From NCBI GenBank assembly GCA_963855995.1, contig OY979725.1:9200883-9264882 (forward strand): a stretch of DNA of 64,000 bases. Reading direction: 5' to 3'. Of this stretch, positions 4,549-56,440 are shown piece by piece (position 1 is the first letter of the stretch; each line of letters begins with the position of its first letter). The position numbers and the translations under genes are program-made. The notes beneath the pieces were generated by a model, which was not told where the DNA came from, did not search any database, and saw only the letters and a program-made list of their open reading frames with translations. Source of the stretch: Muricea muricata (lineage: Eukaryota > Cnidaria > Anthozoa > Malacalcyonacea > Plexauridae).

Positions 4549-4634
4549 ACTGAGTTATCTGCAGATTGTGTGATAGTCGCATTTATCTGCATACAACTGA
4601 CCAATCACAACGCATAAAACAACTGCAATGTATA

Positions 4635-13539: not shown

Positions 13540-13749
13540 CAGCAGTTTAGTTAAGTACCCGTGTTCCGGTGATTACTGATATTTTACAATTTTAACCATC
13601 CAGTCAACATTCGCAAACCGGAGTACCCGGGATAAACCCACGACTGACTAACTCCTCACATGGGTGTCACGAGTCTGAAGTAAGGATTGAACCCACGACC
13701 TCACATGTGATAGGCGTTTGCTCTGACGATTGCGCCACTTGGCTATTAC
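13540..13749 (-). repeat. tRNA-derived SINE, right arm
   Basis: Mirror of 6751-6960: B box complement GGATTGAACC at 13685-13694 and A box complement CGATTGCGCCA at 13728-13738. Confidence 0.8.
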
Positions 13750-15797: not shown

Positions 15798-15935
15798 AAT
15801 TATCGGATTCGGTTTTTGTGATATGCAAAATTATCAATCTCTCGGTAAGAGTTATCTGACTCGCCTTCGGCTCGGCTGATAACTCTTACCTCGACATTGA
15901 TAATTCCGCATATCACAAAAACCTCATCCAATAAT
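15798..15935. repeat. Foldback MITE, right arm
   Basis: Mirror of 3970-4106, with the same GGTTTTTGTGATATGC inverted ends. Confidence 0.6.
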
Positions 15936-16851: not shown

Positions 16852-17081
16852 GTAGCAAAACAAATGGTGGCATGTCGATTTTACCAGAATTTAATGCGGG
16901 TATCAATCAAGAATAGCAGTGAAATGATATTTAACATAAGCTAATGGACGGAATTTTAACACAAGTGACAAAATAACCTATCTGTCTGTTCCTCAAACGA
17001 GGTTAATTTACCTTAAGTTTTTAAACGATTTCAGACCGCAAGGCATTCTGGTAAAATCAACACCCGCCATCTTTTTGCTAC
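16852..17081. mobile_element. MITE with GATGGCG-bearing ends, right arm
   Basis: Mirror of 2694-2923; ends GTAGCAAAACAAATGGTGGC and CCCGCCATCTTTTTGCTAC. Confidence 0.75.
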
Positions 17082-17584
17082 ATTAAATTCCCAAGGGAAT
17101 ATATCATTTCTTTGTTTCTTAGCTAATTTGGTTCATACATCCATGCAAATCAGTAGGATCATTATATTTTTTTGTGCATTTTAAATTCCCATGGGAATAC
17201 GGCATGCTTTGTTTCAATGGTGATGCGTCTGTTTATGGTAATTACTGCATAATGCGAATCCTCTTTGATTATTAATATGATAAGTATCTTGGTGCTTTCA
17301 GATTTGTTTTGGTAAGCAGGAACAATGAAGTCATTGTTTGTGTACACTAAAGCAAATTACGAAGGTGGTTTGAGAGCAGCTGCGAGGTACCATGCAAATG
17401 AAGGCGTTTCGGTTAAATAAGTGTGAGAATTACGGCATTAAAAATTGCATGTCATCTACACTTAAGGATATAAGTTGCCAAAAAAAAAAACAACTTTAGT
17501 GAATCTGTTGAGTTTCAATTGCTTTTTATTTTTGCCTAATTCTCATGCTTATTTGACCCAGCCTTGGACTTTGGTAAGTATCAG

Positions 17585-17824
17585 GGGCCGGTTGTATCAA
17601 AGGCGTTTAGCTTAAACGGTGGATAAGTCAAAAATATGAAACACGTTTCCATGTTGTATAAACAAACCAGCTGAAGTTATTTGACCTGAGAAGAACAATT
17701 ATATATAAAACTAAATATTTATTCTATTTCAACTCATAATTTCGGTTCCGTACTAGGTGTAAAACTGATTTTTAAATTTCACTTATCCACCGTTTAAGCT
17801 AAACGCCTTTGATACAACCGGCCC
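17585..17824. mobile_element. PIF/Harbinger-like MITE, right arm
   Basis: Mirror of 1951-2190, flanked by CAG at 17582-17584 and 17825-17827. It was present before the palindrome arms were copied from each other. Confidence 0.8.
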
Positions 17825-18662
17825 CAGGTTTATATTTACTCCGGAACAGTTAACACAACGAAAAGCCCATGCCCATTCAGCTAAGGTTTTACGTTTGAAA
17901 ATTCAATCAAAAACTCAGTCTAAGTGGGTTTAAGTAGCTAGAGATAACGTAATTTATCTTTTTATTTTGCTTTTTTGTTTATAACGTAATTTATTAGCTA
18001 AATGTATGGACTGCGAGGGTGTGCGCCGTGTGTAAGTTGCATGGGATTAGGTTTATTAAAGGAATTAAAATTTTTGAAAGTATGCTTAAAAACCAAAATC
18101 TGTCGTCACTTCTAACAAAACAGTTAAGAGTAGGTTTCAACATCAACTAAATTGATCTATACTATTAACTAAGAAAAATGCGAATTAAGTTTTATATTTT
18201 GCAAGCAAATTTTAAATAGAATTCTCACCTGTTTTTATGTACGAGCTTTTTCTGTTTACGTTTGATCTAAAATATCCAAATAAATTGCATTTAAAATGCA
18301 TACTTTACCGAAAATTTAACTCTTTTAATTTTCGAAATTGGGTGGCAGTCGGGGTGGTGGTGGTGCATGCGGGTTTATCAGCTGTGAGTGACTGTGCGAT
18401 GGTGAGGAAAGTGAAGGTAACGAATGGAATGCAGGAGCTTAGAACTGAGGAAGACAGCTTAGAACTGAGGCAGGTAGGCAGTTGGTAGGATCAGCGGGGG
18501 GCACTTGACATTTTGGCTTTGGGAATCAAATTTGCATGCTAAGTACTTAAGTCACTAACGTTTGTTGTTTTAATTTGTTAGGTACGCGCGGCTGCTCTCT
18601 AGGGAAGATCAACTTAGCAATTGTATTAGCACTTGCAAAGTTGGTCTTCTCTTTGCCGGCTA

Positions 18663-18775
18663 CCCCGGCCAGTTCTCCGAGTGCTACTTCCACCGTGAAT
18701 AAGTAGAAGTACTTGTACTACATGTATAAGTACTTCTACTTAGGTGGAAGTGGCACTTGGGGAGCTGGCCGGGGT
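18663..18775. repeat. Imperfect hairpin, right arm
   Basis: Mirror of 1000-1112: CTACCCCGGCCAGTTCTCC pairs with GGGGAGCTGGCCGGGGTAG, with the AAGTAGAAGTACTT stem inside. Confidence 0.7.
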
Positions 18776-18968
18776 AGGGGGATTTTTTTTATTCAATTTC
18801 TCAATTCCCATGGGAATTGAATTTTTAATTAAAAAGGGGTCACAAGTAAATTTTGTAAACAATTTATTGAAAAAATTTGTAAAGATTACATACAATTTGA
18901 ATAACAATAAAAAGAGATTAACTACCACACATTGTACTTATTAAAATAACAACAGAAGAAAACAGAAC

Positions 18969-19216
18969 ATGGCAGAGAGAACAATAACACAAGTGAATGA
19001 ACAAAGTCCTAAAAAACTTGGGTCTTTTCAACGTAAGTAAATGTTTATACTTCAAAATATATTATAACAATGAAACAACTTGAAGTGATAAATTTTGAGA
19101 GTTTTGCAAAGGTTTACCAAGCATATAACGAGTTGTTTCACAATTACAAAGAAAAACATGTGGCTCAAAACATGCAACTGATAGAGATGACGAGAAGGCT
19201 TAACAAGTCTAAGTAG
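18969..19216 (+). CDS. Possible small two-exon gene, right-arm copy
   Basis: An ATG at 18969 opens 21 codons beginning MAERTITQVNEQSPKK and ends in the consensus-like donor AAC|GTAAGT at 19033. A second open stretch from ATG 19070 to TAG 19214-19216 encodes 48 residues beginning MKQLEVINFESFAKVYQAY, rich in charged and polar residues and possibly helical. Splicing 19033 to the AG at 19084-19085 joins the two in frame, but would need a 53-base intron, which is very short. Both arms keep the frames. A diverged relative of the donor region lies near 20160-20215. No known family is recognised. The splice model is inference. Confidence 0.28.
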
Positions 19217-19249
19217 AAAGGTTTTCAAAAGTTAGTCACATTTTTATAA

Positions 19250-19334
19250 CCATATGTAACTACCCTGTCAACTCTCCCAGTGGGAAGAACCGGAGTACCC
19301 GGAGAAAACCCACGAGTTTTGGCGGAGCGTTGAC
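19250..19334 (-). repeat. SINE body fragment, right arm
   Basis: Mirror copy of 441-525, with the same CCGGAGTACCCGGAG core on the minus strand. It was carried by the duplication and is not an independent insertion. Confidence 0.7.
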
Positions 19335-19774
19335 CAACGCTTTTTCAAATACAGCCAGCCTCACAGAAGAAAGGTATTTTTGTCAAAAGAAAAATATCAT
19401 TTTTAATCAATTGTGCTTTTATAAGTCAGAAAAAATACATGCACGAATTACCAACGAATTTTGATGGCTTTGAGACATGTAACGTGGGCACATAATTCTT
19501 CCTAAAAATACTTTTTTGTACTCGAAACAACCCTTCAAAACGTCGAAAAACAACGAAGAAACGATTTTTTTATAAATTCCAAATTGACCAAGCTGTAATG
19601 TTCGGAGCCACATTTTTCTTATTGCGTTTCTAACCTGACAATGTGAAATGCACTAAACATTGCTACCTTTATTTTTTTTAACAAAAAATTCAAAAATACA
19701 TAGAATAAAAACCAAGCATTTTTAGAATATTGTGTGTAGCACGACATTTTTCAGAAACCAATCTCTTACACTTT

Positions 19775-30209: not shown

Positions 30210-32010
30210 TATCCTCTATATATAATATTGACAGTGACAACTAAGATAGATAATATTGACAGTGACAACTAAGATAAATAATAATCTTTATTTGTATCCG
30301 TTTTTTAATAATTTACATCGAATTCAAAAAGTATTAATAATATTTCTAGATACTTGCTTTCAGCAATAACCATAAGGCTAAAAATATCTGAAAGCAAATT
30401 TCAGAGGATTTAAACACGATTCAAATCTGGGTATTATTATGGATTTAAACAAAGAAAATATAAAATCAAACACATACTTATACTCACACACAAACACGTA
30501 CATTAATTGGCTTACAAAGATATTTTCACTATTGCTTAAAGATTGATAAAGAATTAACACCAAATGTAACTAGATCGTTTAAAATCAATGTTGGTCAAGA
30601 TATGACCATTTTAATTTCTTTTTAAATTTTTTAAGACTTGTTAAACTTTTGAAGCTTTCATCAATTGAATTCCATACTTTTGGACCTTGGAACTTAATGT
30701 TGAAAATTCCATAATTTGTTCTGGCCTTAGGAATATAATACGACTTTTTTGATGCCTGTCTAGTATTATAACTATGAATTGATGTTAAAGCATCAAAAAA
30801 GTTTTGAAATACCAATGGCAAAAGTTGATAGTGGTACTTATACTTAATAATTGCAATATTATGAGAAACCAAATCAGAAATTTTAAGAATTTTGAGAGTT
30901 TTAAATATCGGACTTGAGTGCTCGTCTGATTTTGAAAAGGTTATAATACGCAGAGCTCGTTTCTGGAGGATTAAAAGAGGATTTAACGTAGTCTCATAAA
31001 TATGACCCCATACTATAATCCCATACACCAAAAATGGTTGAATCAAAGCATAATAAAGCTTTTTAAGGATGTGAATATTAGTAAAATATCGAAGTTTTGA
31101 TAATACCCCAACACCTCATTTTATCTTCTTAGCAACATACCCGATATGGGATTTCCAGTTCAAATTAGAATCAATCAGAATGCCTAAATATTTTATACAA
31201 TACTCCTACTTTATAGGAAAATTATGAATTAGTAATGAGATTTGAGTTGTAATCCGTTTTTGTGGGGAATGGAAGATAACGAAACTTGTCTTTTTAATGT
31301 TCAACGAGAGCCTATTTGCACACAACCAAGTATGTATCTTAGGTAATTCTTCGTTAATGTTAACCTGCAATGTATCAATATTTTTATTTCTATAAAATAG
31401 ATTTGCATCATCAGCAAAAATGTGAAAAGAAAATAAATTAGAACTATGGTGAAAATCATTAATATACAATAAAAATAGAATTGGCCCAAGAACTGACCCT
31501 TGAGGGACACCACAATGGACATTTAGTGGGTCCGACGTTACTCCATTTACTGTGACTGTTTGTTGCCTTTCTTTAAGGTAGGAAACAAAACATTCCTTTG
31601 CTATTCCTCGAATACCATAGTATTCCAATTTCCCAATTAAAATAATATGTTTAATAGTATCAAAAGCTTTACTCAGGTCCAAAAATATTCCACACGAAAA
31701 ATCCCGTTCATCAATTGCTTTCTGAATTTTATCAGCAATAGAGAGAATTGCATGATCTGTGGAGTGATTAGAGCGAAACCCAAACTGAGTTTCAGAAAAA
31801 ATGTTATTGGAATCAATATAAGAAACTAGCCTTTTACACATAAGTTTTTCCAATAACTTATTAAAAACAGAAAGCAGGGAAATTGGGCGATAATTGCTTG
31901 TTATATTACGTGATCCATTTTTATATACAGGAATTATATTGCCCAATTTAAATTTATTCGGTACTATTCCTGTAGTAAAAGACGCATTAAATAAAATTAA
32001 AATTTCTAAA
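30210..32010 (-). pseudogene. 5'-truncated LINE reverse transcriptase (CR1/L2-like)
   Basis: On the minus strand one reading frame (31980 down to 30585) carries a non-LTR reverse transcriptase. It shows NYRPISLLSVFNKLLEKL, the palm motif FLDLSKAFDTI, GVPQGSVLGPILFLLYIND and the catalytic box FADDANLF (31430-31400), then the C-terminal thumb and a tail with YNTRQASKK. The frame is unbroken except for two in-frame stops, TAG at 31206-31208 and TGA at 31116-31118, so the copy is dead. The 5' part (endonuclease) is missing upstream of about 32010. The 3' end carries AATAAAG and a doubled ~27-bp unit TATCTTAGTTGTCACTGTCA near 30225-30280, which may be the LINE's 3' tail repeat. Clade within the CR1/L2 group not resolved. 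Confidence 0.85.
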
Positions 32011-32545
32011 TAATTCTAAATACAATAAATGTATTGAAAATGCCAGTTTCTCATTGCCCACGCCCAGTGATCACATGCATTTGTCAGCAAAATTAACACT
32101 CACAACATTAACAATACATTCAACACTGTCTTTCTTGACATATTTTTTATGATGGATAAAATAATTATATTTTTTAAAACATAAACATCGCCATGTATTA
32201 TGGAAATCATAAGTTTATGATGTCAAAGGCTGGGAAAAAGATTAAGAATCTGATAAAAACCTACATGAGCATGAACTATTCTGTCAACTACTAGCGTCAA
32301 CTTAAAGTGGTTGCCAAAGCTGGAAGATCAACTGGCATTTCCAAATGAATTTGCATAAATTGAGCAAGCAATTTTTATTAAAAACTGGTAAAAGTTGTAA
32401 GGTCGACATACAGCCTTTTGTTTTAGTGTGTTGCATTGTTTCCAATGCCTTCCCACCTCATTTCAACAGGCAAAAACTTTCATAGGCATCATTGTCAAAC
32501 CAAACAGCAAAAATCTCCATTATTTTTTTTTAGTTCAAGGCAGAC

Positions 32546-41070: not shown

Positions 41071-42248
41071 CTACACTGAAGATAGCAATACCTCTGTCAT
41101 ATCACACTCAGGATCAGTTTGAATAATGGGCTTGTTATAGAACTTCTGAAATGTCGAGGCCTTCGCCCAACCCGCTGTAGACATAATGACGTCAATAGGA
41201 GTAGCCTTCTTGTGAGCTTTAGATGTAGAAGCAGCTCTGGTACTATATGGATGAAAAAGAGTCGTATGAAGTCCAGCATCAGTCATCACAGTGTTAACCC
41301 AACGAGAGATAGTTTGTCGTGTTACGGGTTAATAGGGCTTTTGAAAGCTAATAAATAATTGACTCGCACCGCCACCTAAAAGGTTTGTTCTGCTTAAATA
41401 ATCTCGTAAAGTCCGGAGAGGACAAATCTTCGCATTCTTAGGATACTGCTTGATTAGAATAATTGGTGCTGACGCTCCTGGCTTGCTTGTCTTATATGCT
41501 GTGTAATATGAAAACGACAGGTATTGTCGGCCATTTCCATCCAACTCAGATCCAATAAATGTACCGTCTGTCCTCGCTGACCGTTGACCAGAAGGATAAT
41601 CATGACCAGCTTGAGTGTAAGGTTCTTTAGTGTTATATCGCTATGAGGATACAGTGTTTCGAGATATTTGAGGACCACTGCAACATCCCATGTGCAATCA
41701 TATTTGGGGACTGGTTTGTATTGAAGAAAAATAGATTTCATAAATTTGCTGACAAGTGAATGGGTGCCAAAGTTCTCGCACTCCCCACTTACAATGACAT
41801 TGGATAGTGCAGAACGCGCTGTGCCAATGGTCGAGTAACTGAGTCCTTTGTTGTGAAGAGCCATTAAAAAACCCAACGCATCTCTCATTGAGGGCGAATG
41901 GTAAGTAATTTGTCTTTGATTACAAAATTCCAACCATTGTGTAAGGTATGTCTCATACTGTTTCTTAGTACCGGGTCGCCAAGATTGCTTAATGAAGTCG
42001 GCAATGTCTGCTGGAAGTTGGAAGCGTACGAAGGAGTTCCGGAGACAGGAAACACCAGAAGATGAAGCTTCTGGTGAAGAGGATGTACTTCTGGCTTGAC
42101 CGGATGCTGCAGGAGTGTTGGTTTGGCCAGTAGGATCCAGGGTTGCTGATAGAGAATCTGGAGAACACTTGAAAACCAAGTATGTGTTGGCCACAGGGGT
42201 ACAACGATGATGCCTGAAGCTTTGTCCACACAAATCTTTTGTAAACAA
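41071..42248 (-). pseudogene. DIRS tyrosine recombinase, broken
   Basis: The N-terminal arm-like region (TYLTQWLEFCNQRQITY, GLSYSTIGTARSALSNVI) and the core (LVMIILLVNGQRGQTVHLL, with the first catalytic arginine in GQRGQT) lie in one frame, 42248-41454. A frameshift moves the rest into another frame (41544-41329, with KICPLRTLRDYL). A TAA at about 41333-41335 then interrupts it before the C-terminal part (41289-41071) with HPYSTRAASTSKA and the tyrosine region FQKFYNKPI. In related DIRS recombinases I expect PHSTRAA; here the second catalytic histidine position reads tyrosine. Overlaps the RNase H frame, as is usual in DIRS. Confidence 0.85.
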
Positions 42249-43416
42249 CTGGCGATAAGACGAAAGGGTGGAAAGGCATAAAAATTGTAGCTATGCCAGT
42301 TTAGACTGAACGCATCTACGGCTATACAACCAGGATCAGGCTTCCAAGAAACATAGTGTTGTAATTGATGATTAAGCCTACTGGCAAACAAATCTACATT
42401 CAAGTTAGGGTATTTGGCTACAATTGTCCTAAAACTGGACACATTTAACATATATTCATGTTGGTCGTGAAATATGCGCGACTTTTTATCAGCTTCATGG
42501 TTGGATGCACCCGCAATGTGCACTGCCGAAATCCATATAGAATGTTCTATACTCCACTCCCACATCTGAATCGTTAACTCATTTAATACCAAAGATTTTG
42601 TGCCCCCCCCCCCCTCATGTTATTAATATAAGTGACAGCCGTAGAATTATCTAACTGGAGTTGTACGGTGCAACGTTGACAGTTAAGACAAAATGCTTTT
42701 AGTGCAAAAAATGCTGCAAGTAACTCAAGGTAGTTAATATGAGAAGAGCTCTCGGATACTGTCCACCTGCCCCCAATCGCCTGAGAGTCCAGAACTGCAC
42801 CCCACCCGAGTGTGGAGGCATCAGATTTAATTATATAGGAGGGGTGGCTTTTAACAATCGATCTAATAGCGAGAGATATGTTACCAATCCACCAGTTCAA
42901 ATCATTAATGCTTCTGGGGCAGAGCTCCATAACAGCATTGTAGTTACTACCACTGGTTTTTAATGCAGATATCTTATCAATTTCTAGAGAGCGATAATGT
43001 AGCTGTCCGAATTCTACGCCAGGTAGATTGGAGATTAAAACGCCAACAACGCGAGAAACCTGTAAAATAGTGGGCCGCAAAGTCTATAGCAGTTCGGTGC
43101 AGCATGTAATTGTTTTTCTAATTTTTTCTGGAGTGGGCGAAATTGTCATGTTTAGGGAATTGAACACAAAGTCTAAAAAGGTTACAGTTTGTGCTGGGCT
43201 CAAAACAGATTTGTCTGTGTGTAGAAAAAACCCCACAGTATTCATTAAGGTAGCAGAGGCCTTAACATTACTGGAGCAAGCTGCAACAGAATCCCCTTGG
43301 AGATAGGAATCATCAATATAACATGAGATGATCTGACCCATAACATATATACGGGTTTCATAAGTTTTGTAAATATTCGGAGTGCACTTGCTAACCCATT
43401 GGGAAGGCAAGTGTAC

Positions 43417-44914
43417 GGCATCGTCTAAAACGCGGAATACGGAATGGAACAACTGGAATAACTGGAACAGCTGGAACAACTGGAACAACTAAAAATTTCC
43501 GATTTTTAGCACTTTTCTGAATTTTAGCATGTATGGAAGTACACACAACGCTCAATAAGCTTTCTAAAATATGAAAAACGCGCAGACAGAATACAATTCT
43601 AACAAATTACTTACACGAAAATATCGACAGTCAAAATTAAACGAGGTGATTAAGTTGGATTGTAATGGCATCTTGGAAACCAATTTACACTGTTCAGTTT
43701 TTGAAAACAAGACATTTTGGTAAAATAGCCTAACATAGCCCATTAAAGAAAATGTGCGTTCCTCGCGGAAGCCAAACTCTTATTGTGTGAGAATATGCCT
43801 TTCGCGGAAAACGGGCATTGCTCAAACAGACCGAATGCAACACAATATTTCGGTTTTCAAAAGCGAATAAAACCGTCAACGGAAAGAAGACCAGATAGTT
43901 TGAATTGCTCAAAGCAAGCACTTAAAAGACAATCAGGGGAGAAACTAGCGCCTTTTGGTTGGGGTGGGGGGTGAAAGGGTTCACTGCCCTGCCGTTATGT
44001 AAATGCCCTGCACAAAAATGCCTGCCATTCGGGCTAAATACAAATGACTTCAAAATTAATACAGATAAACCATCGAGATACAGTGGCGTAGCCAGGGTGA
44101 TTGTTTTAGGGGGTAACACGCGAGAGGCGAAGGCGATATGCTCCTTCGGGAAAATTTTGAAATCTACAGTTCCGCAAATGCGATTTGCTGCATTTTCGGG
44201 TGAGATTTAGCAGAAAAAAGCTTACTTTTGAGGATTATATGGTGCATAAAAGACATCATTTTTATCAATTTCACAATCACAGCAATCAATTCTTATTACA
44301 AGGGTGGTCCTTCTGGCCATTGGAGGGGCTGAGCCCCACTCCCCTTGTCTACGCCACTGTTGAGATAAACAAGCTAGTGGCTGCAGTGGTTCCACTTACA
44401 TTACAAGTTACAAAAATCACTATTCCATTGTAAATAAAAATCTAGTCATTCGATGATCGAATCTTAAAATCAAGCAGTCAAGCGTGAGAAATAAGAAAAG
44501 TAAGTTCAAAAACTGAAAGAGACACAAGTCTGACACACTGTCAGTCTGTCAAAAAGTAAAATTTAGCTATTACAAATACGGTTTTATTTTTTCATTTCAA
44601 ATTTTACATTTTGCCCTGCATACTTCCCCTGTTCCCTTAAGTTTCGCCCCTGAAGACAATGAAATTCGAAACTCGCGTGGCGTTGCCAAAGTGTGTCCAC
44701 TCTGTGTGGGGCTACTTTTCCTTAATAAATTACGATCCTTCGAGAGTGGAACAGGATATATATATATATAGTCAGGTGAAAAATAATATCTATGCAAGTC
44801 TAATATCGTGTTTTTTCCTGAAAATCGCAAGATATTTGTTTGTAATAAAAGAAAATTCAGCTGTTCCAGGTATTCCAGTTGTTCCATTCCGTGTTCCGCG
44901 TTTTAGACGATGCC
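43417..44914. mobile_element. 1498-bp element in DIRS RT, 9-bp duplication
   Basis: CAAGTGTAC is duplicated at 43408-43416 and 44915-44923. The inverted ends begin GGCATCGTCTAAAACGCGG and run into a short tandem TGGAACAACTGGAATAACTG array. The 9-bp duplication and long inverted ends suggest a non-autonomous Mutator-like element. No transposase is recognised inside; small open frames (43730-43974, 44185-44433) look random. A hAT-like MITE is nested at 44081-44359. Confidence 0.85.
44081..44359. mobile_element. hAT-like MITE nested in the 1498-bp element
   Basis: The ends CAGTGGCGTAGCCAGGG and CCTTGTCTACGCCACTG are inverted. The flanks TCGAGATA (44073-44080) and TTGAGATA (44360-44367) match at 7 of 8 bases. 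Ends and 8-bp duplication are typical of hAT. Confidence 0.85.
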
Positions 44915-45399
44915 CAAGTGTACTGGTAAAGTACACCATTAGCCACAAACTTTAAGTACTTTTGGTGATCCGGATGTATAGCTACCGTGTAATACGCATC
45001 TCGAAGATCAATGGAAGCCATATAACACCCTGGCTTCATTAGTTTAATCACAGTGTCCAGGGTGTCCATTTTAAAATGATGATAGGCTACATACTGATTA
45101 AACCTTTTAAGGTTCAATATCATTCTATAAGTGTCGTCTTTTTTAGGCAACAAAAATATGGGCGATATAAACTCTTCGGGCTCATGCTGTGATTGAACAA
45201 TCACACCTTTCGCGAGCAATTTGTGAATTTCAGTGCGAACTACTGAAATATTTTGAGGCTGCTGCGTAACACAGATTCCTTCATTTGCTGGTGGGAGTTG
45301 ATGTCCTTTAAACTCTATCCGGACCCCTCGAACATACTGTAAAATCGTAGTATCACTAGTTAATTTACGCCATTCAGGCAAATATTGCGATAAACGCCC

Positions 45400-46635
45400 T
45401 GCCTTAAACTGAGATTGATTTTTCAATATTTCAGCAACCTCACATTGAATAGGCAAAGAAAACATTACACTCACCCCACACGAGGAACTGCTAGCCGTTA
45501 CTTGCTTGAGGTCGCTTTTTTTCTTGGTTGTGGGAAACCGACCATTCTCGAAAAAAGGAGTCTTGTTGCGGTTATATGGCTGATATCTACGTTGAGCACG
45601 GTTACTCGAGCCATAAAAGGAGTTACCTCGGCTTACACGACTTGATGTTTGGTAACTTACAGTCGCTCTAACTCTCTTAGCAAGCTTATTAGCATCCGTG
45701 ATTTCTTTAGTCGCTTTTGACAAATCACCAAACAGGTAATCACCAGGGGCCGGTTGTATAAAAAAGTGATTAAAGTTAACTATGATTAGTGGAAACATAA
45801 GAGTTTTATACAACCGGCCCCTGATGGCATATGAACATTACAAAGTGCGGCAAAGTCCTTGTGGTGGTCTTTTTTCATAGCCAATCTTCTAGAATGGTGG
45901 TCATGATTGCATTGCAACATGAACGCTATAGAATCCGTCAACATCGTTAACAAATCCAGATCGCCTCCTTTGTTGAGGACATACTCCGTTGCCCGGACAA
46001 TCGCACTCACTGCGCCTATCAACACATGTTGAATTTTTTGGGACTTAGCATTGCCCGCCCGTGTACCGGCTGATATTTGGCCCCACATCAACGGGTTTAC
46101 TCGGGGCGTTTTTAAAAACTCCACATTTGCTGGGCGTAGGTATTTCTTGAGTTTATCCTGAAGTTTTTCGTCAGCAAGCCGTTCTTTTAATAAGCTCGTG
46201 ACAATGGTAGCTAATGCATCATTTACCGGCTGACCTGTTTTGTCTTCAACCGCGAGATCTTGGGCAATGTTTGATAATAAATCTGGGTGTGGCGGCTTTT
46301 GCTGCGATAATATCAAATTTTTTACACGGGTATCTAACGAAAGCTTGTCCGTTTCATTATCAGCACGCATTTGTTCGCGCAGTTCCTCGGTCAACCAGTT
46401 GTCATCGTCATTGATTTTCTCCCTCGACAACGCCTTCGCCTTCGACTCGTTCGGCTTCACCGGTTTCAGAGCGACCCTCGCGCAAAGTCGCCATACTCGC
46501 TTTCAAATTGTTAATTTCGCCCAACAACAAGGCGAACAAGTCGTTCATCGAGCTGGGATTCGAATCGTCGACGCCAGCTCTGGGCGCTGTTGAGCTCTGG
46601 TATAACTTATATCCCACAACGCCAAAACGACGCAC
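45400..46635 (-). pseudogene. DIRS gag-like ORF1, broken
   Basis: It begins at about 46635 (MNDLFALLLGEINNLKASM inside the first frame), shifts frame near 46430-46460, and continues as NWLTEELREQMRADNETDKL with the segment ending NVHMPSG. A 77-base insertion (74-bp MITE plus 3-bp target) separates this from GDYLFGDLSKATKEITDANK. Removing 77 bases would restore the phase, which supports the insertion boundaries. Downstream is a basic, arginine-rich, nucleic-acid-binding-like stretch (RGNSFYGSSNRAQRRYQPYN). Confidence 0.75.
45747..45820. mobile_element. Short PIF/Harbinger-like MITE in DIRS gag
   Basis: A 74-bp element with GGGCCGGTTGTATA ends, the same ends as 1951-2190. Flanks CAG (45744-45746) and CTG (45821-45823) fit a CWG target with one change. 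It splits the gag frame. Confidence 0.8.
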
Positions 46636-46803
46636 AGTGCGAAAAAAATTTAGAGCGAAACCAACTACGTTGGTTGATTTTCAAAGCAATACCAACTTCG
46701 TTGGATAAGTTAAACCAATGAAAAGCTAAGAGACACTCTTTTAATTTTGCTTGCTTTCACACAACATCACATACGTCTTGCTTGAACCACCGCTAGCTGT
46801 GCA

Positions 46804-46866
46804 ATGAACCTATACGCGTGCGCAGTGCTTCTCATTGGGTTCCTGCCTCCGGTCATGTGATAGAAT
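46804..46866 (-). repeat. DIRS inverted terminal repeat, gag side
   Basis: ATGAACCTATACGCGTGCGC to CCGGTCATGTGATAGAAT, the inverse of 40553-40617. Confidence 0.85.
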
Positions 46867-46867
46867 T

Positions 46868-47345
46868 ACATTTAAAATTCATATTTCACCGAAATTTTAA
46901 TTCTTTGAATTTGCGAATTGGGCGTCAGGTGCCAGTGGGTTTATCAGCTGTGAGTGACTGTGCGATATGGTAAGGAAAGTGAGGGTAACGAATGGAATGT
47001 AGGAGCTTAGGACTGCATGAGGAAGACAACTAAGAACTGGCCTCTGTAAAGAAGATCAACTTAGCAATTTGCATTTGGTCTTCTCTCCGTCGGCTACCCC
47101 GGCCAGCTCGCCGAGTGCTACTTCCACCGTAAATAAGTAGAAGTACTTGTACCATACGTAAAGTAGCACTTGGGGAGCTGGCTGGGGAAGGGGGATTTTT
47201 TAAATTTCTAAATTCCTATGGGAATTGAATTTTTAATTAAAAGGGGACACGTGCAAATTTTGTAAACAATTTATTCAAAAGAACTTGTAAACAATGCAAT
47301 TTTATTAACAATAAAAAGAGACTAACCGCTACAAAATTGTATTAT
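46868..47345 (+). repeat. Second-copy fragment F, right flank of the DIRS
   Basis: Follows right-arm 18284-18950: CATTTAAAATTCATA, GTTTATCAGCTGTGAGTGAC, GTAACGAATGGAATG, CGGCTACCCCGGCCAGCTC, AATTGAATTTTTAATTAAAA. The 1000-1112 type hairpin is shortened here (47095-47190). Confidence 0.75.
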
Positions 47346-48689
47346 ATAAATTTGAACTGAAGGCAAGAAAATGAAACAAACGTCTCAAAGTTAATTTTAT
47401 TTGTCAAAACAAGAATGTACCAGATGAAGTCTTAAAGAAGAAACAGAAATAGGCCAAAGAACATCTTGTAATTGCATTCATAATATCTAATTCAAAAACC
47501 CATCCCGGCAATGAAGTATAAAGATATCAAATACTTGAATTCAGTGAAAATTTATTGTACATACCGATTTATTGTATTAAACTACAGCTAAGTCAATTGT
47601 AATCTGAAGTGAATTGTCTTGAAAGTCACATGCCCGTATATTTGGGGAATTTTGAGGGTATCCAAAAAAATGCAGTGCGGTTCAAGCTTTCCTTGAATTA
47701 GCCAAACCACATAACACTTGTTAGTTGTGACTGAGGATAATTTCAGGTAGCGCAGCAACTGATCTATTTAAACACTAGTGTTATGTGGTTTGATTAATTC
47801 AATTCTTGTCATTTGAGTAACAACTAACAAGTGTCACATGAAAAGCCATGCTTTTTTAAAGTAATACAGTAGTAAACAAACTCAAAGGCACAACACTATA
47901 TGTGTGGCTCAACTGCAATCCTGCTCAGTTTCAGCACAACCTTGTTGAAAAATATTGAAAACCTACTTTACCGCTTGTTTGTTCCAACCCTTGCATTGAG
48001 TATAAATTTCCAGAAATGCTATATGCATGTATTAAACATATTTCACTGAACTATAACTTAAACTTTTAAGGGTTGTTTTCTCACAACTTCATCAAAAATC
48101 ATTTTGTTGTCTGGTTGTGGTTTCCTTTATATATGTATCAATAATCAGTTTTCAGATTTTGTCAGCACGCACTATTCTAAAATGAAGAGTACTTTTGGTG
48201 CTTTAATTCATTTGTCATTTGTATTCAAACCAGTTCCACTTTTTAATGCAGCAATACTCGATTTATATCACTAGATTACTTGACCGTAATGGCTTGTTCT
48301 AAAGTTGAAAAAATTACTACTGAAAATACAAAGACTGAAAAATCATACAATTAAAATGAACAATGAAAGTTGAATTTTTGGCTAAAAATTTGGGATAAAA
48401 ATCACTGACCTTTGTTGATTCAGGTTTTTAATTTGCGAAAATGCATTAGACTGAAAACAGAATTCAAGAATTTTGAGTTTTTCAAGATAGGAGTCATGAG
48501 TCAAGTCACTCATGGTGTTAGACTTGGAAAAATACACAAAGAGGATTATTTCAAAATCCTTTTTCGGCTCATAATTTCAGCAAAAATAATACAAAAGTAA
48601 TTCCAAATAAAGAGTGCATATTAATAACACAATTTATTAAAAACTGTATATTTCGAATTAGATTTGATTCATCTTCAGCAGTGTTAGCA
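47346..48689. other. AT-rich, one inverted repeat
   Basis: 47692-47840 is a foldback: CCAAACCACATAACACT pairs with AGTGTTATGTGGTTTG, and CACTTGTTAGTTGT pairs with ACAACTAACAAGTG. The rest shows no gene or known repeat. Confidence 0.55.
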
Positions 48690-48779
48690 AGTATTTTCAG
48701 TACCTTTCGTAACAATGTAGTTTTTTTAGCGTTAATGTAACTCCCGGCAAGCAAATGGTGCCTGCTCGTTGCCGAGATT

Positions 48780-51141
48780 GTTCGAATACAGGATAGGCGC
48801 GACAGGTGAACACGACTCCGTATCTCTTCATCTCTCGCTGTCCCTCCTTTATTTGCCAGGGGCCAAAGCAGTCCACCCCACAGACCGTGAACGGAGGTGG
48901 TGGTTGTAGACGATCCTCGTGTAAGTCGGCCATCTTCTGATCTTGAGGGGAAGCACGTAGTTTCCTGCACGGTAAGCAATCATAAATGTGATGGCGATCG
49001 CAGAACTTCCACCGGTTATGCAGAAGCCATTTACGCGCAGGATAATTGTCATTGACTTCGAGATTCGGGATTAGGTTTGGGGTTCAGGGTCATTGACTTC
49101 GGGATCTTCATGCGAAAGCGGGTGTTCGGTAGCACCTACCAGATCAAGTTGAGGGTTCTGGAGGAATGATGGACCAGAAAGCCAACGTTCGTTGTCAAGG
49201 AATTCTCGAGTAGTTAGACCTCTGAAGGCTTCGCCCGCAGGGTTTTCCTTGCTTTTAACGTATCGCCACTGTTCAGGAGATGTCTCATCACGAATCTGTT
49301 GGACCCTGTTGGCGACGAAGACGTCGAATGGTCGAGCCTCGTTATTAAGGTAGTCGAGCACCACCTTACTATCGGTCACGTATACGTCGACCATCTTGTT
49401 GTAATCTAGCTCTTTGCGCAACATGGCACTGACTCTAACTGATATATCAGGGGGGAGACACGAGATTTCGCCATAACTAGTTCGCAGTGGACTTCTTCAT
49501 GTACATTAACTAAACGTATATACGAACACTGTCCGTATCCAGACGCACTTGCGTCGGAAAATGATAAAGCTCTGTAGACTTTATCGGACCAAATTCCTTT
49601 GGTTGGAAGCATCTTCGCACTTTAAAGTCGTTAAGTAAGCAGAGTTCGTTTCTCCACTTCTCCCATCTGGCTCTAATTTGGTCTGGAACAGGGTCATCCC
49701 AGTTGGTTCCTTCACGACATAGCTTTTGAAGCAGTTGTTTTTCCACCAACAGGACAGGAGCAACTAATCCCAGGGGGTCGTATATCGAGCTAATCGTAGA
49801 TAGGATACATCTTCGAGTTAAAGGAGTATCTTGAAGGGTGATAAGCATTTGAAATGTGTCTGACTCAACACACCAATAGACGCCGAGTGCTCTCTCGATA
49901 GGTAGACGGTCGCTATGAAGGTCCAGGTTCTCCAGTGTGGAAGCACAGTCTTCGCGAGGGATTGCTGAAATAACTTCTTTCGAATTAGATATGAACTTGC
50001 GGAGCCGTGGAACTCTCTTCGCACACATTTCTTTAGTTTTTTTAATCAGGGTAGTGGCATGCTCAACGGTGTCGACCGATTTCAGTCCGTCGTCGACGTA
50101 GAAGTCGTTCCTCACGAAGTTGGCTGCCTCGTCTGCGATCCTCTTTAAGCCGACGTTTTCATGCAGATCCTGGCGATGATCCCCGCCAAAAAGGGGAACA
50201 GTCATCCTGTACTCACTTGGCTGTTTCGTAGTGTCTCTACCTTCCCACTAAAGGAATCGCAGGAAGCTTCGATGAGCTTCTGCCACTTTGAACTGGCGGA
50301 ACATCGCCTCCACGGAGCACATAAAGGCTGTAGGATCTTTCCTGGATCTGCAGAGCACGCACACGAGCCGGTTTATGAGGTCTGGAGCTTGTAGGAGGTG
50401 ATCATTCAGTGATTGCGCTGCAGTGAAATACTACTCGTATCATCTCGGGTTTTCTAGGGTGGTATACCCCGTGGTGTGGGATATACCTTACGTTGCCGTC
50501 TTGTTGAATTCCGTTGCGTATTTCCTTTCGATAAGTTCGTTCATGAAGGTGATATAGTCGTCACGGTATTTCTTATTCGTTTCCATGCGAGTCTGAAGCT
50601 TGGTTAAACGACGCAAGGCAATGGATTTGTTATTGGGCATAACAGGGCTTTCCTTTCAAAACGGCAGAGGTATTTCATAGTGTCCATCCTCTCGTTGACG
50701 AACGCCTTGCTCCATTTTCGTCAGAAATTTCTTGTCGTCTTGTGACATCGGTTGGTCTGAACTTCTTTCCGAAAAGTCCGATTCTAACATTTCTCGACAT
50801 CGAACGGGATTAATAACCTCCTTGATGCTTGGTTTGAATGCAAAATGGCATGTCTTCTGTGTGGACGCGTTGGTGAGCCGGATACTTTCTGTCGATATAC
50901 GGTGTGCTACGCCGTCTGAAACATTGTCCTCGTCTGCAACTTCACCACCAACATTGCCGATAATCCCCCATCCAAGATCGGTCCTTTGAGCATATGGTTC
51001 ATTCGGCTTTCCAGTGATGACTTCTCGTGGCATTATCGCTTGTGGACAATTGAAGCCAATGAGAAGTGTAACGTCTACGTCTGTCTTCAAAGGGACTAAG
51101 TGATGGGCGATACTGTTGAGATGTGGCCATGGCTGAACCAT
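48780..51141 (-). pseudogene. BEL/Pao pol: RT, RNase H, partial integrase
   Basis: 51141-50656 holds the typical pre-RT motif LLIGFNCPQAIMPREVITG and RTDLGWGIIG. RT proper reaches the catalytic DFYVDDGLKSV (about 50115-50080), followed by RCILSTISSIYDPLGLVAPV and the connection domain. RNase H segments lie at 49612-49071 (SFSDASASGYGQCSYIRL, VYVTDSKVVLDYLNNEA, QWRYVKSKENPAGE). The integrase zinc-binding part reads RHHIYDCLPCRKLR and the core begins FTVCGVDCFGPW before the sequence is lost. Frames are broken repeatedly. Confidence 0.85.
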
Positions 51142-51621
51142 CTCGGAACATGGTATCTGTTACCGCTTCGCTGGTATAGTTGTGTTATGGCTTATGTCAC
51201 TCACCACAAGGCCCTTGATTTTCTTGCTGGGAATTAGTTCGTTCTCGGCGTGCATAATCGATAAGGATAGCTGTGTCTTAGGTCCGTTGACTCGAAGACG
51301 GTCCACCATTTCCTGCGAGAGGAATGTGGTGTCTGATTGGTCATCTAATAAGGCTTAGACGAGTTTCTCTTCTTGAAGGTTGTCCGTGAGACTAATCCAT
51401 GCGGGTACGATCATTGAACTTATTTGGTATTGATAAACCCATTGTTCGTCGAACGGGTCTTGATACAGCGGACTATTGATTATCGGGATGTCCTTGCGGT
51501 TTTGAATCTTTCTTATCATTGGTTTCGTTTCGAACGTCTCCGTAGAGAGATGTTGGATGTAATTTTCCGCATGTGTCGCAGGTTTTTCTTTCCTTGCAGT
51601 TTTTGGAGACGTGGCCTTGCT

Positions 51622-53161
51622 TCAGCTTTGCTTCAGGCAACCAAAGCAAAGTCCTTTAGACTTGGTGAATTCTTTTCTTTCCTTTATATCTTTCTTGCAG
51701 AATTCTTGACATGAATTTAAGTTCGTGAGCTCCCTTACAAAGAACGCAGAACTTAACGGCTTGGGTTTCGTCTTTCGTTGTTTCGTGGTTGCTAGGATCG
51801 TCTTCCTTCGACTTTGTAAACAAGGTGTTCCTAGGTCTTCCTCCGTACTGCATGGGAAACTTGCATCTTGACGCACCATAAATTTGATACTTTGGTCGCT
51901 TGAAATCTTCGTCCTTGCCGATCCTTCGAAGGTTGACTGGGTCGCAAGCTATGTCAGAATCCTTCACGAGGAATTTCACAAACTCCGAGAAAGGGGGAAA
52001 ACTTTCTTTCTCTTCCTTCTAGTTACACACCAATCCTCCCCATCTAACTGCAGCCCATCTTGGTAGCTTGGACGTCATCTTATGATTCTCTTGGTCCTCA
52101 TCGAGAACTTTCAAACTGCTTATCCTTTCCATAGCTTTCTCACACTGGACGAGTAGACATGCGTATTTCCTAAGACCATGACTATCGTTTGGTGCAACTT
52201 GTGGCCATTCGCCAAGCCTTTTACGAAAGGCGGATGCCACTGCAAACGAGTTTCCAAATCGTTTCAACAACTGCTTCTTTGCCCTTTCAAAAGCGTCTTC
52301 GCCATCAAGCAATACAAATCCTTCGACAATCGCCTTTGCTTCGCCAGAAACATACTTTTCTAGGTAATGCAGTTTTTCAGCAGAGTTAATCGCACGAGTT
52401 TCTATTAGCGTTTCAATACTCACACTGGATACTGAAGGGGATCGCCAGAAAAGACACCAGGCTCTGGCAAAGGTAATCTACTTTGGTTGTGGATTTCTAA
52501 GAGTTTTGATATCGTATTCAGTTGGGCTTGGACAAGGTTGGGATTTCTTCGATGGCAGTTGACGATTGGTTGGCGTGGTCAAGGGGTATTGGATCCTGTA
52601 AGTTAGCATGAGAATAGTTTTGTTCATTGTGGGTATAGGTAGGTGCCAGGGGGTTGAGTTGTGCTAGGGTGCTGCTGTTGGCTATCGATCATTAATGACT
52701 ATGGGAACAGCTTGATTTCCTACTTCACAGGTCTGGGCTTCGTTAGCAGTCTGAGCTTCATTACTGGTCTGGACATTGCCTGGTCAGGTTCGGCTGAGAG
52801 TTCAGAAATTTCATAATGTGATCCTCTACATTATTCTGATCATCGTCTTCGAAGTCAGGCATCGCAACTTCTTCTTCAAACCTTTTAAATACGTTGATCC
52901 GGGCCTTCTTCTCCGCTAACTCCTTTGTGATCCCGTATTTCTCAGACTCTCAGTGACCGTTTCTCTGTTTGCCTTATCCAAGTCCTCCTTTACTTTAGCC
53001 TTACTCATTTTGGTGTTGAGGCATGTTAGTTCTTCTTCTAAATCAAGTCTGCGTTGTCGTGTAGATGAAGTTGTGCTAATAGTAGAATGGCGAATTTCCA
53101 TATTTCTCAAAGTTACGCAATGTTCACGAACGCTGGCCGATGACCTTCCGAGAACGTTCAA
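51622..53161 (-). pseudogene. BEL/Pao gag with zinc knuckles, broken
   Basis: The N-terminal part (53161-52916) is coiled-coil-like and charged (LDLEEELTCLNTKMSKAKV). The middle (52423-52019) matches the BEL/Pao gag domain: EKLHYLEKYVSGEAKAIVEG, AFERAKKQLLKRFGNSFAVA and HGLRKYACLLVQCEKAM. The zinc-knuckle region (51760-51622) has CVLCKGAHEL and GLCFGCLKQS, split between two frames by a frameshift near 51725. Confidence 0.8.
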
Positions 53162-53469: not shown

Positions 53470-53703
53470 ACCACAACAGCGTGAGCCAATTACTGTGGGC
53501 CCGTAATACCTATCCCACCCTGTCAGCTTTCCCTGTGGGAGGAAACCGGAGTACCCGGAGAAAACCCACGACTTTCGGCAGAGCGTTGACTATACTCTTT
53601 TCACATGAGGACTGGGTTCGAGTCCACCTTACTGGGGATCGAACTCGGAACCTTAGAGGTGAAAGGCAAGTGGTCTAACCACTACGCCACCGAAGCCCCA
53701 CTA
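53470..53703 (-). repeat. Full-length tRNA-derived SINE
   Basis: On the minus strand: head TGGGGCTTCGGTGGCGTAG with A box TGGCGTAGTGG (53679-53689) and B box GTTCGATCC (53636-53644). The body follows with CTCTGCCGAAAGTCGTGGG, CTCCGGGTACTCCGGTTTCC and TCCCACAGGGAAAGCTGACA. This is the best-preserved copy of the family also seen at 441, 6751 and 33511. It is not a tRNA gene: no closing acceptor stem. Confidence 0.85.
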
Positions 53704-54617
53704 AAAATAAATAAATAAAAATACATTGTATAAATACTTTGTCAAACCTGAGTTAAACTCGACTCAAATTTACGATACCATCATGGATTATGCGTCTCAA
53801 CACCGGGATGTATTCATACCATGTTGGACATGATCTAGCAGTAATTTATATATTAAGCTCATACAAGTTTGACGTACGAATACATGTCGAATTTACGATG
53901 TACTTTAGACGCATCTATTAGGATTAAATTTGACTCGACATAAATCTAACGTATAAACTAGGCCTAAGACTTGACGACTAACTTTAGTTACTCTTATCGT
54001 ACTCTTCGACTTACTCTAAATTTATTTTATATGTCTCTTTTAAGAGGGTGGTAAAGGGAGGGTGCTTACCACGTTCAACGGCGGAGTAAAAGTAGATCCA
54101 TAATTCATGCGTCTTCGAGAAGCACCTTCACGTTTCATTTACATTGCAGTTTGTTTACAGACGGACCTACATCACGTTCCTCTAGATAGAGATCTTATTT
54201 TTTCAATTTGTATATAATCCTTCAATATGTATCGACCTCAGAAAGGCCTCTGAAGATATTTTCACTCTTTTTTGAACAAGTGGAAGATTACGAGACTGCC
54301 ATCTATTATTCCCAATCCACGTTGCATTCTTTTCACAATCACGCCTCACCGGCGTAGAACAAATCACATTTCAACCACACAGAATCAAGCATTTCACACA
54401 AACAGATATTGACCAATCATGACTCACGAAAATATTAAACACCCTCTTAAAACAGCTGTCTGACTAATGTCACGCAATTACGGTATATCTTAAATATAAA
54501 ATGTTGGAACCATCACATGACTTGATATGATTAAACTATCATTGCATTAACTAAGATAAAAAGTAATTGAAAATAGAAAAGTCCTCGTATGCAGAACGGA
54601 CTTTACAACATGCATGT
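53704..54617. other. Downstream region of the STING-like gene
   Basis: No repeat recognised. On the minus strand AATAAA occurs at 54021-54026, about 590 bases after the stop codon, and could be the polyadenylation signal. That is a weak inference. Confidence 0.4.
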
Positions 54618-56411
54618 TTAAAGACCTTTCATGTCTTCCTTCAAGAATTTTTCCTCATCAATATCACAAACATTACTGGACGCCAGCGCCACACGATCAG
54701 ATACTGGCGCACCATCGTTAGCATCACATTTTCTCTCATACTTTACGTCTCCAGTCGAGACGTCACTCGGTGGTGATGGGAGTGGTTTAAGATTCCCAGG
54801 CTCTTCAGGAATATCTGATGTTGGTCGTTTAAAGCCTTCGTCATCAGACTTTGCCACAGGCAACTTTACAATGAGATTCGGCTTCTTCTCTCCTTGCAGG
54901 GTGCTAGTCTCACCGGAATCATCAGCAGGAATAGAATTGTTCTTTGTCTCATCTCGAACATCGTCAGCAGTACTCAAAGTGACCTTACCGTCCTCTTGTG
55001 CCTGTTTTTCCCACAGAACATAGGGGTTGCTTTGAGCACCATGAACAAGTGCTGACCCTCTATAACTGGAGTGGTCAATATGTGATTTATATTTTCTTGG
55101 GCGCCTGTTTACCGCTACCTTTCGTTTAGGATTTCGTTTAAGATTAAGAATATTCTCATTCGCTGCTGTATCGAGCAAGAAACTATCTTCATCTGAACTA
55201 GTTCCAATAAGAATGGCAACATCTCGGCTGTCACGTGGTTGGCTTTTGACCGTGGTATCACTGGATGTACTAGTCTCCCGTGGCTGCCGTCGAGACGGTA
55301 TGGGATGCGGTGAAGTGGTGTCTGATTCTGTGTAGTTCTCGTTGTTGGATGTGCCTTGATCTGCTTCGATTTTTTCCATAATTGCTCTCACAAGCCAGCC
55401 TCTTCGTATATTTGGGACTTCCTTTATTTGTACAAGAGTACACATGTTTTTGTAAAATTCGTGGCCAGGTTCAGCAAGAATTTTCGATATTTCTTGGCAG
55501 AGCAAACCTAGGTGATCCTTAGGATTGTTGCCGTATAAGAATCCATATCTTTTAGACTCGTGTATCTTCTTTATAACTGCTAACTGTTCCCTTAAACAGA
55601 GTATAACATGCTTGTATTCTCTTCCATTGTACTGCAGGCGATAAACAGGTAATTCAGGACATCCACCATTTGAAGCTACTTCGCTAATGTCGCTGTCCAG
55701 ATCGTGCAACTTTCGGAAACAGTCGGAAACAAGCAGTATTATTTTTTTTGAATGTACCTGTATTTTGGTATGTTTATCCCAACCATTACGTTCAACTGCA
55801 TCAGATTGTTCCTGAACGGAAATGTCACTAGTAAAACGCTCGGTGAATGTTGCCATCAGTCTATCAATGTCAAAAAAGCAGCTCCACGCCAGGGTTTGAA
55901 TTGGATGCCATCCCAACTTCTCAATAAGTCTTGAAAGACTAACGTTAGATAGTGCGTTAAGATTTAGCAGATATGTCACCAGCGGGCTAAACACCAAGCC
56001 GCTTAAAATGTACATTAGGTCGTCAAGTGTAGCTATATCAGCATGTGTTAGCAATCTTATTACTACCAAAATCCCCAGGCCTAACACACTAACAAGTAAC
56101 AGTGGCTTCCACTGGAATGCACTGAAAGAATCTTTACACAACTTGGAACATTCCCGATTGTAACGACTACGACACTGACGACATTCTTCAAAAACGTCAC
56201 ACAAACATTGAATGATAGGAGCGATCAAGATGCCCAACAGTGTCATACAAGAAAATTCTACTATTTTGAGAATATTTTTCGGATAAAAGACGTGAAGAAG
56301 TACTAATCCGACTAGCAAAATTGCGAATAAAACCTTCGATACAACTTTCGTGCCTCTTTTCTTTAGTCTCGGCAACATGTTGTGTTCCGATTGATCTTCA
56401 ACTTTGGTCAT
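54618..56411 (-). CDS. STING1: STING-like innate immune receptor with long tail
   Basis: 597 residues in one intact exon. Hydrophobic segments at about 25-43, 47-70, 102-121 and 130-151 form a four-helix membrane domain. Between helices 2 and 3 lies a cysteine-rich RSRY stretch (71-92), as in human STING around HSRY and its palmitoylated cysteines. Residues 160-190 align without gaps to the STING connector and first helix of the ligand domain: S-x(3)-EK, then LAWS (174-177). IILLVSDC (224-231) and a long helical stretch, KRYGFLYGNNPKDHLGLLCQ to ILAEPGHEF, match the ligand domain to about 350. STING is an ER receptor for cyclic dinucleotides. Several ligand contacts look changed: the Y167 position is I, R238 is P, E260 is C. 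The tail 351-597 is long, Ser/Pro/acidic, and I find no LxIS motif. The start ATG lies 9 bases after a 3' splice site. Confidence 0.75.
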   Translation of the reverse strand: MTKVEDQSEHNMLPRLKKRGTKVVSKVLFAILLVGLVLLHVFYPKNILKIVEFSCMTLLGILIAPIIQCLCDVFEECRQCRSRYNRECSKLCKDSFSAFQWKPLLLVSVLGLGILVVIRLLTHADIATLDDLMYILSGLVFSPLVTYLLNLNALSNVSLSRLIEKLGWHPIQTLAWSCFFDIDRLMATFTERFTSDISVQEQSDAVERNGWDKHTKIQVHSKKIILLVSDCFRKLHDLDSDISEVASNGGCPELPVYRLQYNGREYKHVILCLREQLAVIKKIHESKRYGFLYGNNPKDHLGLLCQEISKILAEPGHEFYKNMCTLVQIKEVPNIRRGWLVRAIMEKIEADQGTSNNENYTESDTTSPHPIPSRRQPRETSTSSDTTVKSQPRDSRDVAILIGTSSDEDSFLLDTAANENILNLKRNPKRKVAVNRRPRKYKSHIDHSSYRGSALVHGAQSNPYVLWEKQAQEDGKVTLSTADDVRDETKNNSIPADDSGETSTLQGEKKPNLIVKLPVAKSDDEGFKRPTSDIPEEPGNLKPLPSPPSDVSTGDVKYERKCDANDGAPVSDRVALASSNVCDIDEEKFLKEDMKGL

Positions 56412-56420
56412 GACAAAATA

Positions 56421-56440
56421 CTAGAAAAGAAATTAAATCA
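56421..56440 (-). promoter_or_regulatory. 3' splice site just before the STING-like start
   Basis: On the minus strand TTTAATTTCTTTTCTAG ends at 56421, preceded by a TACTGAT branch-like motif, and the exon begins at 56420. It implies a 5' untranslated exon upstream. That exon was not located. Confidence 0.6.

Follow-up and report, generated by a model that had tools for sequence, protein, structure and literature searches.

The 64,000-nucleotide stretch of Muricea muricata DNA analyzed here (the window) harbors a gene on its minus strand whose sequence firmly places the encoded protein in the STING family. The residue at the position of human Tyr167 is replaced and a long tail follows the ligand domain, and the alignments make it likely that the lid of the ligand domain is short and that further ligand contacts have been lost, features which it shares with three paralogs from the same genome. 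On balance, we favor the reading that the gene codes for a lid-less paralog of STING that would have given up canonical cyclic-dinucleotide binding and would act as a membrane scaffold. The gene comprises the following parts:

54618..56411, minus strand: single-exon open reading frame of a predicted STING-family membrane protein, 597 amino acids plus stop
56412..56440, minus strand: short 5′ stretch with a splice-acceptor-like TTTCTTTTCTAG directly before TATTTTGTC-ATG (read by eye, unscored)
55959..56357, minus strand: residues 19-151, four hydrophobic segments, predicted STING transmembrane domain (hydropathy, STING_TM, alignment to human STING)
55851..55949, minus strand: residues 155-187, connector and first ligand-domain helix, EK...LAWSCFFDIDRLM (z 5.1, 13-row alignment)
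55719..55748, minus strand: residues 222-231, first strand KKIILLVSDC, human LYILLPLDC (z 5.9, family profile)
55647..55718, minus strand: residues 232-255, putative shortened lid with the equivalents of Arg232, Arg238 and Tyr240 missing or replaced (13-row alignment; contrary alignments exist)
55581..55646, minus strand: residues 256-277, hairpin VYRLQ-YNG-REYKHVILCLREQL (13-row alignment, alignment A2, family profile, subset runs)
55344..55580, minus strand: residues 278-356, remaining ligand-domain helices and last strand NMCTLVQIKE (z 3.7, with 9 of 5000 shuffles equally good; family profile)
54621..55346, minus strand: residues 356-597, Ser/Asp/Lys/Pro-rich tail of 242 residues, predicted disordered (composition, patterns)
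55182..55220, minus strand: tail residues 398-410, VAILIGTSSDEDS (single pattern match in the tail)
55086..55139, minus strand: tail residues 425-442, KRNPKRKVAVNRRPRKYK, strongly basic cluster (charge count)

The gene runs from ATG to TAA over 597 intact codons. By eye, a pyrimidine-rich run ending in TAG is recognizable 9 bases 5′ of the ATG; given this acceptor-like sequence, the coding region constitutes one exon, and an intron in the 5′ UTR is likely. The chance that the 242 codons of the tail stay open is about 6e-7 as calculated from their base composition, hence the frame is no chance event; the five other frames of the same stretch contain 6 to 34 stops.

The hydropathy of the protein reveals hydrophobic segments at about residues 19-51, 46-77, 98-129 and 131-151, and the RSRY and EK...LAWS motifs occupy residues 81-84 and 164-177, respectively. 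Pfam STING_TM matches residues 54-165 with E=2.9e-4 and 21.6 bits, which is under its curated cut-off of 28.1, and an alignment of residues 1-186 with human STING reaches z 9.1, which none of 500 shuffles equals. The protein thus possesses a four-helix membrane domain of the STING type. Pfam STING_LBD has no match in the protein.

A search of the genome (453 Mb, 74 contigs) with STING_LBD gave seven matches, L001-L007, which do not include the window gene. An eighth paralog, L008, lies beside L006 and was the one case of extra STING sequence among seven further stretches examined around L005-L007. Besides the window gene, the genome hence contains at least eight STING genes, one of which (L007) is broken. 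Their STING_LBD scores are graded, from 154.5 bits for L001 over 137 for L004, 69.3 for L005 and 44.3 for L006 to 16.6 for L008 and no match for the window protein, with 35.5 bits for the broken L007; L001, L004, L005, L006 and L008 pass the STING_TM cut-off. The cyclic-dinucleotide lid is kept in L001-L004, and L005 (798 amino acids), L006 (402) and L008 (413) are lid-short as the window gene appears to be, L006 and L008 having short C-termini. Four stretches outside the window are referred to below:

L005:202-2595, minus strand: STING paralog L005, 798 amino acids
L007:976-1941, plus strand: STING paralog L007, in-frame stop after 265 codons
L008:172-1413: lid-short STING L008, 413 amino acids, beside L006
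L008:3864-4025: fragment of a third STING copy, near L008

In L007, similarity detected by tblastn continues past the stop in the same frame to about position 1941, and this copy is probably a pseudogene. L006, L008 and the fragment form a small STING cluster on contig C10, which also carries the window gene and L007. L001, L002 and L003 are arranged as a lid-bearing tandem (G000:C5:1155587-1167383) of single-exon frames about 4 kb apart, L001 and L002 being 96% identical. We had considered that the intronless window gene might be a retrocopy, and dropped this idea because the eight paralogs likewise occupy single open frames (that of L007 being broken).

In a blastp comparison against a database of eight proteins (the window protein itself and L001-L007), the window protein matched L005 with E=2e-24 and the other six with 2e-9 to 3e-14. 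These paralogs from its own genome settle its membership in the STING family. It is 20-26% identical to every relative, and its aligned core is 23-25% identical to the lid-bearing paralogs. A profile of four sequences scored the ligand domain with 11.1 bits, compared to 7.4 for the best of 2000 shuffles. The family profile, which comprises L001-L006, L008 and the human, Nematostella and two Stylophora sequences and from which the window protein was left out, scored the protein with 115 bits over residues 55-352 and the ligand domain alone (residues 166-356) with 36.3 bits versus at most 4.3 bits in 2000 shuffles. Hence, this part of the protein is a homologous STING ligand-binding domain despite the missing STING_LBD match. 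The earlier note had recognized a four-helix start, the RSRY loop, the EK...LAWS helix and the ligand-domain helices as STING-like and had proposed a profile search of the ligand domain; hydropathy, STING_TM, the shuffles and the family profile all agree with this assignment.

Among the 15 PDB sequences listed as matches of the whole protein, 13 are STING chains (E 0.083-6.5), the other two being ArcB and IcmQ. The ligand domain alone retrieved no STING chain from the PDB sequences, and its sole match, to Protein IcmQ with E=0.51, was taken as chance. AlphaFold models calculated without an alignment for the whole protein and for residues 152-356 were uninformative (mean pLDDT 40.5 and 38.6), and a Foldseek search with the former, in which no match at E<=0.001 appeared, is meaningless at such confidence. 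No relatives of the gene were present in viral contigs, none of nine pattern matches in GTDB genomes was confirmed by tblastn, and within the window tblastn found no second STING-like stretch, all other matches having E 3.5 or worse.

We compared the ligand pocket with the positions listed for human and pig STING in the available part of PMC7288161, calling residues in human numbering from three MAFFT modes on the full 13 rows. Ser162 is kept in the window protein, and Tyr163 is replaced by Cys, Gly166 by Asp and Tyr167 by Ile (Ile182). The latter replacement, which had been proposed before, appears in all three modes and under either of the two competing alignments described below, so that the stacking aromatic is absent in any case. 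Arg232 is replaced by Asn. The lid arginine Arg238 and Tyr240 are missing in all three modes, although contrary alignments keep both. The earlier note had placed a proline at Arg238, whereas this residue falls inside the lid deletion and a proline appears in one mode at the column of Tyr240. At the pocket floor, the 13-row alignment shows Glu260 replaced by Cys272, Thr263 by Glu and Pro264 by Gln; the cysteine, also predicted previously, was found in all three modes, but a contrary alignment puts a Glu at position 260.

Shortening of the lid is indicated by the spacing between the equivalents of Cys206 and Tyr245. This is 39-43 in all eight STINGs that bear a lid (those of human and Nematostella, two from Stylophora, and L001-L004), compared to 26 in the window protein, 29 in L008 and 31 in both L005 and L006, where the motifs marking the ends were picked after seeing the alignments, the choice for L005 is unclear and L007 is unmeasurable. 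Relative to the eight lid-bearing proteins, the lid is shortened by 8-17 residues across these four lid-short ones, and by 13-17 residues in the window protein alone. The equivalents of Arg238 and Tyr240 are absent from all four in the 13-row alignment. At Tyr167, L005 carries Asp, and L006 and L008 retain the tyrosine; Glu260 is a Thr in L005, and L008 has an Arg at the column of Arg232 in two of the three modes. Of the lid-bearing paralogs, L001-L003 retain all 12 positions scored except for a Ser at 267, and the residues that differ in L004 are Phe (163), Leu (242), Gln (260), Ser (263) and Arg (267). The proposal of an altered ligand pocket is therefore supported, with the short lid and the loss of Arg238 and Tyr240 being common to three paralogs of the same genome.

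How the lid is read depends on which of two alignments is chosen. In the short-lid alignment, which underlies the earlier note, VYRLQYNGREYKHVILCLREQL is the counterpart of the human hairpin and the lid preceding it is 13 residues shorter. In the lid-kept alignment, YRLQYNGREYKH is the lid, Arg232, Arg238 and Tyr240 are retained, and it is the hairpin that falls into a deletion. When the templates are human, Nematostella and Stylophora sequences, hmmsearch, hhalign and three MAFFT modes choose the lid-kept alignment. In shuffle tests whose segment limits were chosen after seeing the alignment, the segment Cys206..YKH scored z 7.0 against a coral STING in this alignment (none of 5000 shuffles as good), and summed over four templates the lid-kept segment reached z 6.1 versus z 2.2 for the hairpin of the short-lid alignment. 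Anchored scores are divided, human STING favoring the short-lid alignment, Nematostella and one Stylophora sequence the lid-kept one, and the second Stylophora sequence either of them depending on gap costs. The lid-kept alignment also won with seven paralogs in the absence of L008, in A1 and in an E-INS-i alignment, and in A1 L005 likewise keeps Arg232 and Arg238. In blastp, the alignment with L005 is short-lid and that with L003 is lid-kept.

When L008 was added, alignment A2 and all three MAFFT modes run on the 13 rows gave the short-lid alignment. So did the family profile, whose match covers the entire ligand domain through the hairpin; a profile of the lid-bearing sequences alone gave the lid-kept alignment and ended at residue 272. 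We further realigned the 13 rows in three modes after dropping 0-2 of 11 rows, always keeping the window and human sequences. The short-lid alignment was obtained in 173 of 201 MAFFT runs, which share data and hence are non-independent, and the lid-kept alignment in 28; split by the presence of L008, the former was found in 155 of 168 runs with and in 18 of 33 runs without this sequence (18 versus 15). Among small sets, human alone and human plus L001-L004 each gave the short-lid alignment in all three modes, and human plus three anthozoan sequences the lid-kept one in all three. We judge the short-lid alignment to be likelier because L006 (SVYQLL) and L008 (SVYEL), whose hairpins are recognizable, also have shortened lids. 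An alignment that keeps the contacts, which according to the earlier note would speak against its reading, thus exists and has to be taken seriously: it wins with human, sea anemone and coral templates and in two paralog alignments, but it loses in A2, in the three all-row modes, in the family profile and in most of the subsets.

In a phylogenetic tree, one branch (86/88 on all columns) separates the eight lid-bearing sequences, among them those of human and anthozoans, from L005-L008 and the window gene. The split between lid-bearing and lid-short proteins has a support of 84/78 after removal of the lid and pocket columns, and of 97/98 with the window gene and L007 left out as well, with the limit that the tree is unrooted and that long branches can create such a split. 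The end branch of the window gene, with 2.5 to 2.6 changes per site, is the longest in the tree, and its own placement is uncertain. The data neither support nor reject a clade that unites the four lid-short proteins to the exclusion of L007 (p-AU 0.41). L001-L004 group with the sea anemone and coral STINGs apart from the human protein (81/83 to 87/88). A single old lid-less STING lineage is therefore a possibility. A wider proposal would hold that such a lineage, separate from the cyclic-dinucleotide-binding STINGs of animals and represented here by at least four single-exon genes, consists of nucleotide-independent membrane scaffolds or sensors of another signal that in two cases use long disordered tails as output; we regard this as doubtful. 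If the old lineage were real, the split between lid-short and lid-bearing forms would predate the divergence of human, sea anemone and coral.

The tail of the window protein contains 11.6% Ser, 10.3% Asp, 8.3% Lys and 7.9% Pro and is placed with disordered sequences by a charge-hydropathy plot. Within residues 356-597 there is no match to LxIS, to the TRAF-type PxQxT/S or to the strict TBK1-type [DE]xPxPL[RK]. The protein hence lacks a vertebrate-type signaling tail with LxIS and TBK1-binding motif. The long Ser/Pro/acidic tail without LxIS described in the earlier note is therefore confirmed by composition and pattern scan, with a length of 242 residues as delimited here. KPLPSPPSDVS had been considered as a TBK1-like motif and was dropped because the strict pattern is unmet. 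The stretch VAILIGTSSDEDS presumably resembles a SUMO-interacting motif with a run of acidic and Ser residues behind it, and the block 416-445 around KRNPKRKVAVNRRPRKYK has a net charge of +9 in an otherwise mostly acidic tail. Pfam found neither a domain nor a homologue of the tail, and the tails of the window protein and L005 gave no significant match to each other (best E 2.4). The L005 tail of about 430 residues, which has no Pfam domain above cut-off, seems from its translation to include about three copies of a unit some 115 residues long; cross-matches are offset by 115, yet self-blastp listed the full-length match alone.

If these features are taken together, the protein would be a dimer or oligomer located in the membranes of the ER/Golgi, with the STING architecture of four membrane helices, connector helix and STING-type ligand domain kept. 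The lid that closes over the cyclic dinucleotide would be cut down, and the contacts Tyr167, Gly166, Arg232, Arg238, Tyr240, Glu260 and Thr263 would be replaced or missing. Closure by a cyclic dinucleotide would then be impossible, and the protein would have to assemble constitutively or jointly with the four lid-bearing STINGs, or be gated by another ligand or by modification of the tail. The disordered tail may recruit partners and signal or scaffold in place of the vertebrate-type TBK1/IRF tail. From the altered pocket we infer that canonical cyclic-dinucleotide binding has been lost, and analogy suggests a scaffold or adaptor function.

It appears quite unlikely to us that cyclic-dinucleotide binding is kept, with YRLQYNGREYKH forming a lid that carries Arg232, Arg238 and Tyr240. 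The z 7.0 of Cys206..YKH against the z 2.2 of the hairpin, the agreement of the search and alignment programs on human, Nematostella and Stylophora templates, A1, the E-INS-i alignment, blastp to L003 and 28 of the 201 subsets argue for it. The hairpin, however, constitutes two strands of the core sheet of the STING ligand domain and would be deleted, Tyr167 is an isoleucine regardless, the limits of the shuffled segments were set post hoc, and A2, the all-row modes, the family profile, the remaining 173 subsets and the sets of human alone and human with L001-L004 go the other way. A tentative possibility, compatible with a lid-less protein and differing in the output, is that of an inhibitory partner which in mixed dimers or oligomers holds lid-bearing STINGs inactive or tunes their threshold. 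STING dimers meet at the membrane domain and connector, which are the strongest match of the window protein to human STING, and four lid-bearing STINGs are encoded in the same genome; the identity of 23-25% in the aligned core speaks against such pairing.

The pocket might instead be remodeled for another small molecule, for instance another nucleotide signal or a lipid-like ligand, over which the shorter lid closes. Consistent with this, the ligand-domain core is retained end to end, Ser162 is kept and, in the available text of PMC9980059, coral STINGs with replaced pocket residues shift their ligand preference. Yet the coral variants described there retain the lid arginine and both tyrosines, the positions replaced here are those which that text calls universal, and all four lid-short proteins have a shortened lid with little agreement on its replacement, which makes a receptor for an altered ligand unlikely. 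Decay of a duplicate without function, finally, is very improbable: L007, with its in-frame stop and similarity beyond, demonstrates that members of the family do decay and the end branch of the window gene is the longest, but 597 codons are intact despite 2.6 changes per site, the STING architecture is kept over residues 55-352 and an open tail is improbable by chance.

When compared to canonical animal STINGs (human STING1; Nematostella vectensis 5CFL; 8EFM, 8EFN and 8GJZ, which we take to be Stylophora pistillata STINGs), the lid-less paralog proposed here shares the four membrane helices, the RSRY loop, the LAWS connector helix and the ligand-domain core, and differs in the lid shorter by 13-17 residues, the replaced or missing contacts and the 242-residue tail without vertebrate motifs. 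L005, L006 and L008 are like it in the short lid and the loss of Arg238 and Tyr240, and L005 is also long-tailed; unlike it, L006 and L008 retain Tyr167 and end in short C-termini, and L005 keeps Arg232 and Arg238 in A1. S. pistillata, with seven STING genes according to the available part of PMC9980059, resembles the present genome in having several paralogs with altered pockets. The ligand domains of its STINGs are described there as 54-75% identical to one another, and four purified ones bind cyclic dinucleotides, whereas the lid-short proteins here share 19-37% identity among themselves and with the remaining rows. Oyster TIR-STING and the bacterial-like eukaryotic STINGs, the latter defined in the accessible text of PMC10732462 by ligand domains closer to those of bacteria, likewise have STING domains in unusual architectures, but in contrast to oyster TIR-STING, Pfam recognizes no TIR or other domain in the window protein.

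STING is commonly treated as a receptor for cyclic dinucleotides. In the open-licence literature, judged mostly from titles and abstract openings, we came across no description of STING paralogs without a lid. At least one survey (PMC12424679, section 8) lists 50 genes from early-branching eukaryotes, namely those that retain all ligand-recognition features. Copies like the window gene would escape such a filter, as they would Pfam STING_LBD. Expression and function of lid-less STINGs would mean that the STING fold has a role independent of a nucleotide signal, and a single genome would offer lid-bearing and lid-less forms for direct comparison.

Scans of the window with Rfam and for tRNAs were empty. 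Downstream of the STING gene, a SINE-like sequence (53480-53710, minus strand) presumably resembles a tRNA-derived SINE, and ARAGORN finds no tRNA. Retroelement remains at 41457-52477 on the minus strand comprise a Pao peptidase, DUF1759, a reverse transcriptase (below cut-off) and a phage-integrase-like domain, an arrangement of the latter two that we take to be DIRS-like. A second reverse transcriptase, presumably LINE-like, is located at 31209-32015 on the minus strand. On the plus strand, 63395-63604 matches RhoGAP with E=0.0018, below cut-off, and 61342-61464 matches nothing; both are probable exons of a RhoGAP gene. Positions 1-19774 form a near-perfect inverted repeat, either a large palindrome or an assembly artefact, whose outer arms (1-3337 and 16438-19774) are 100% complementary and are followed by six further arm pairs of 95-100%, with about 2 kb between the innermost arms.
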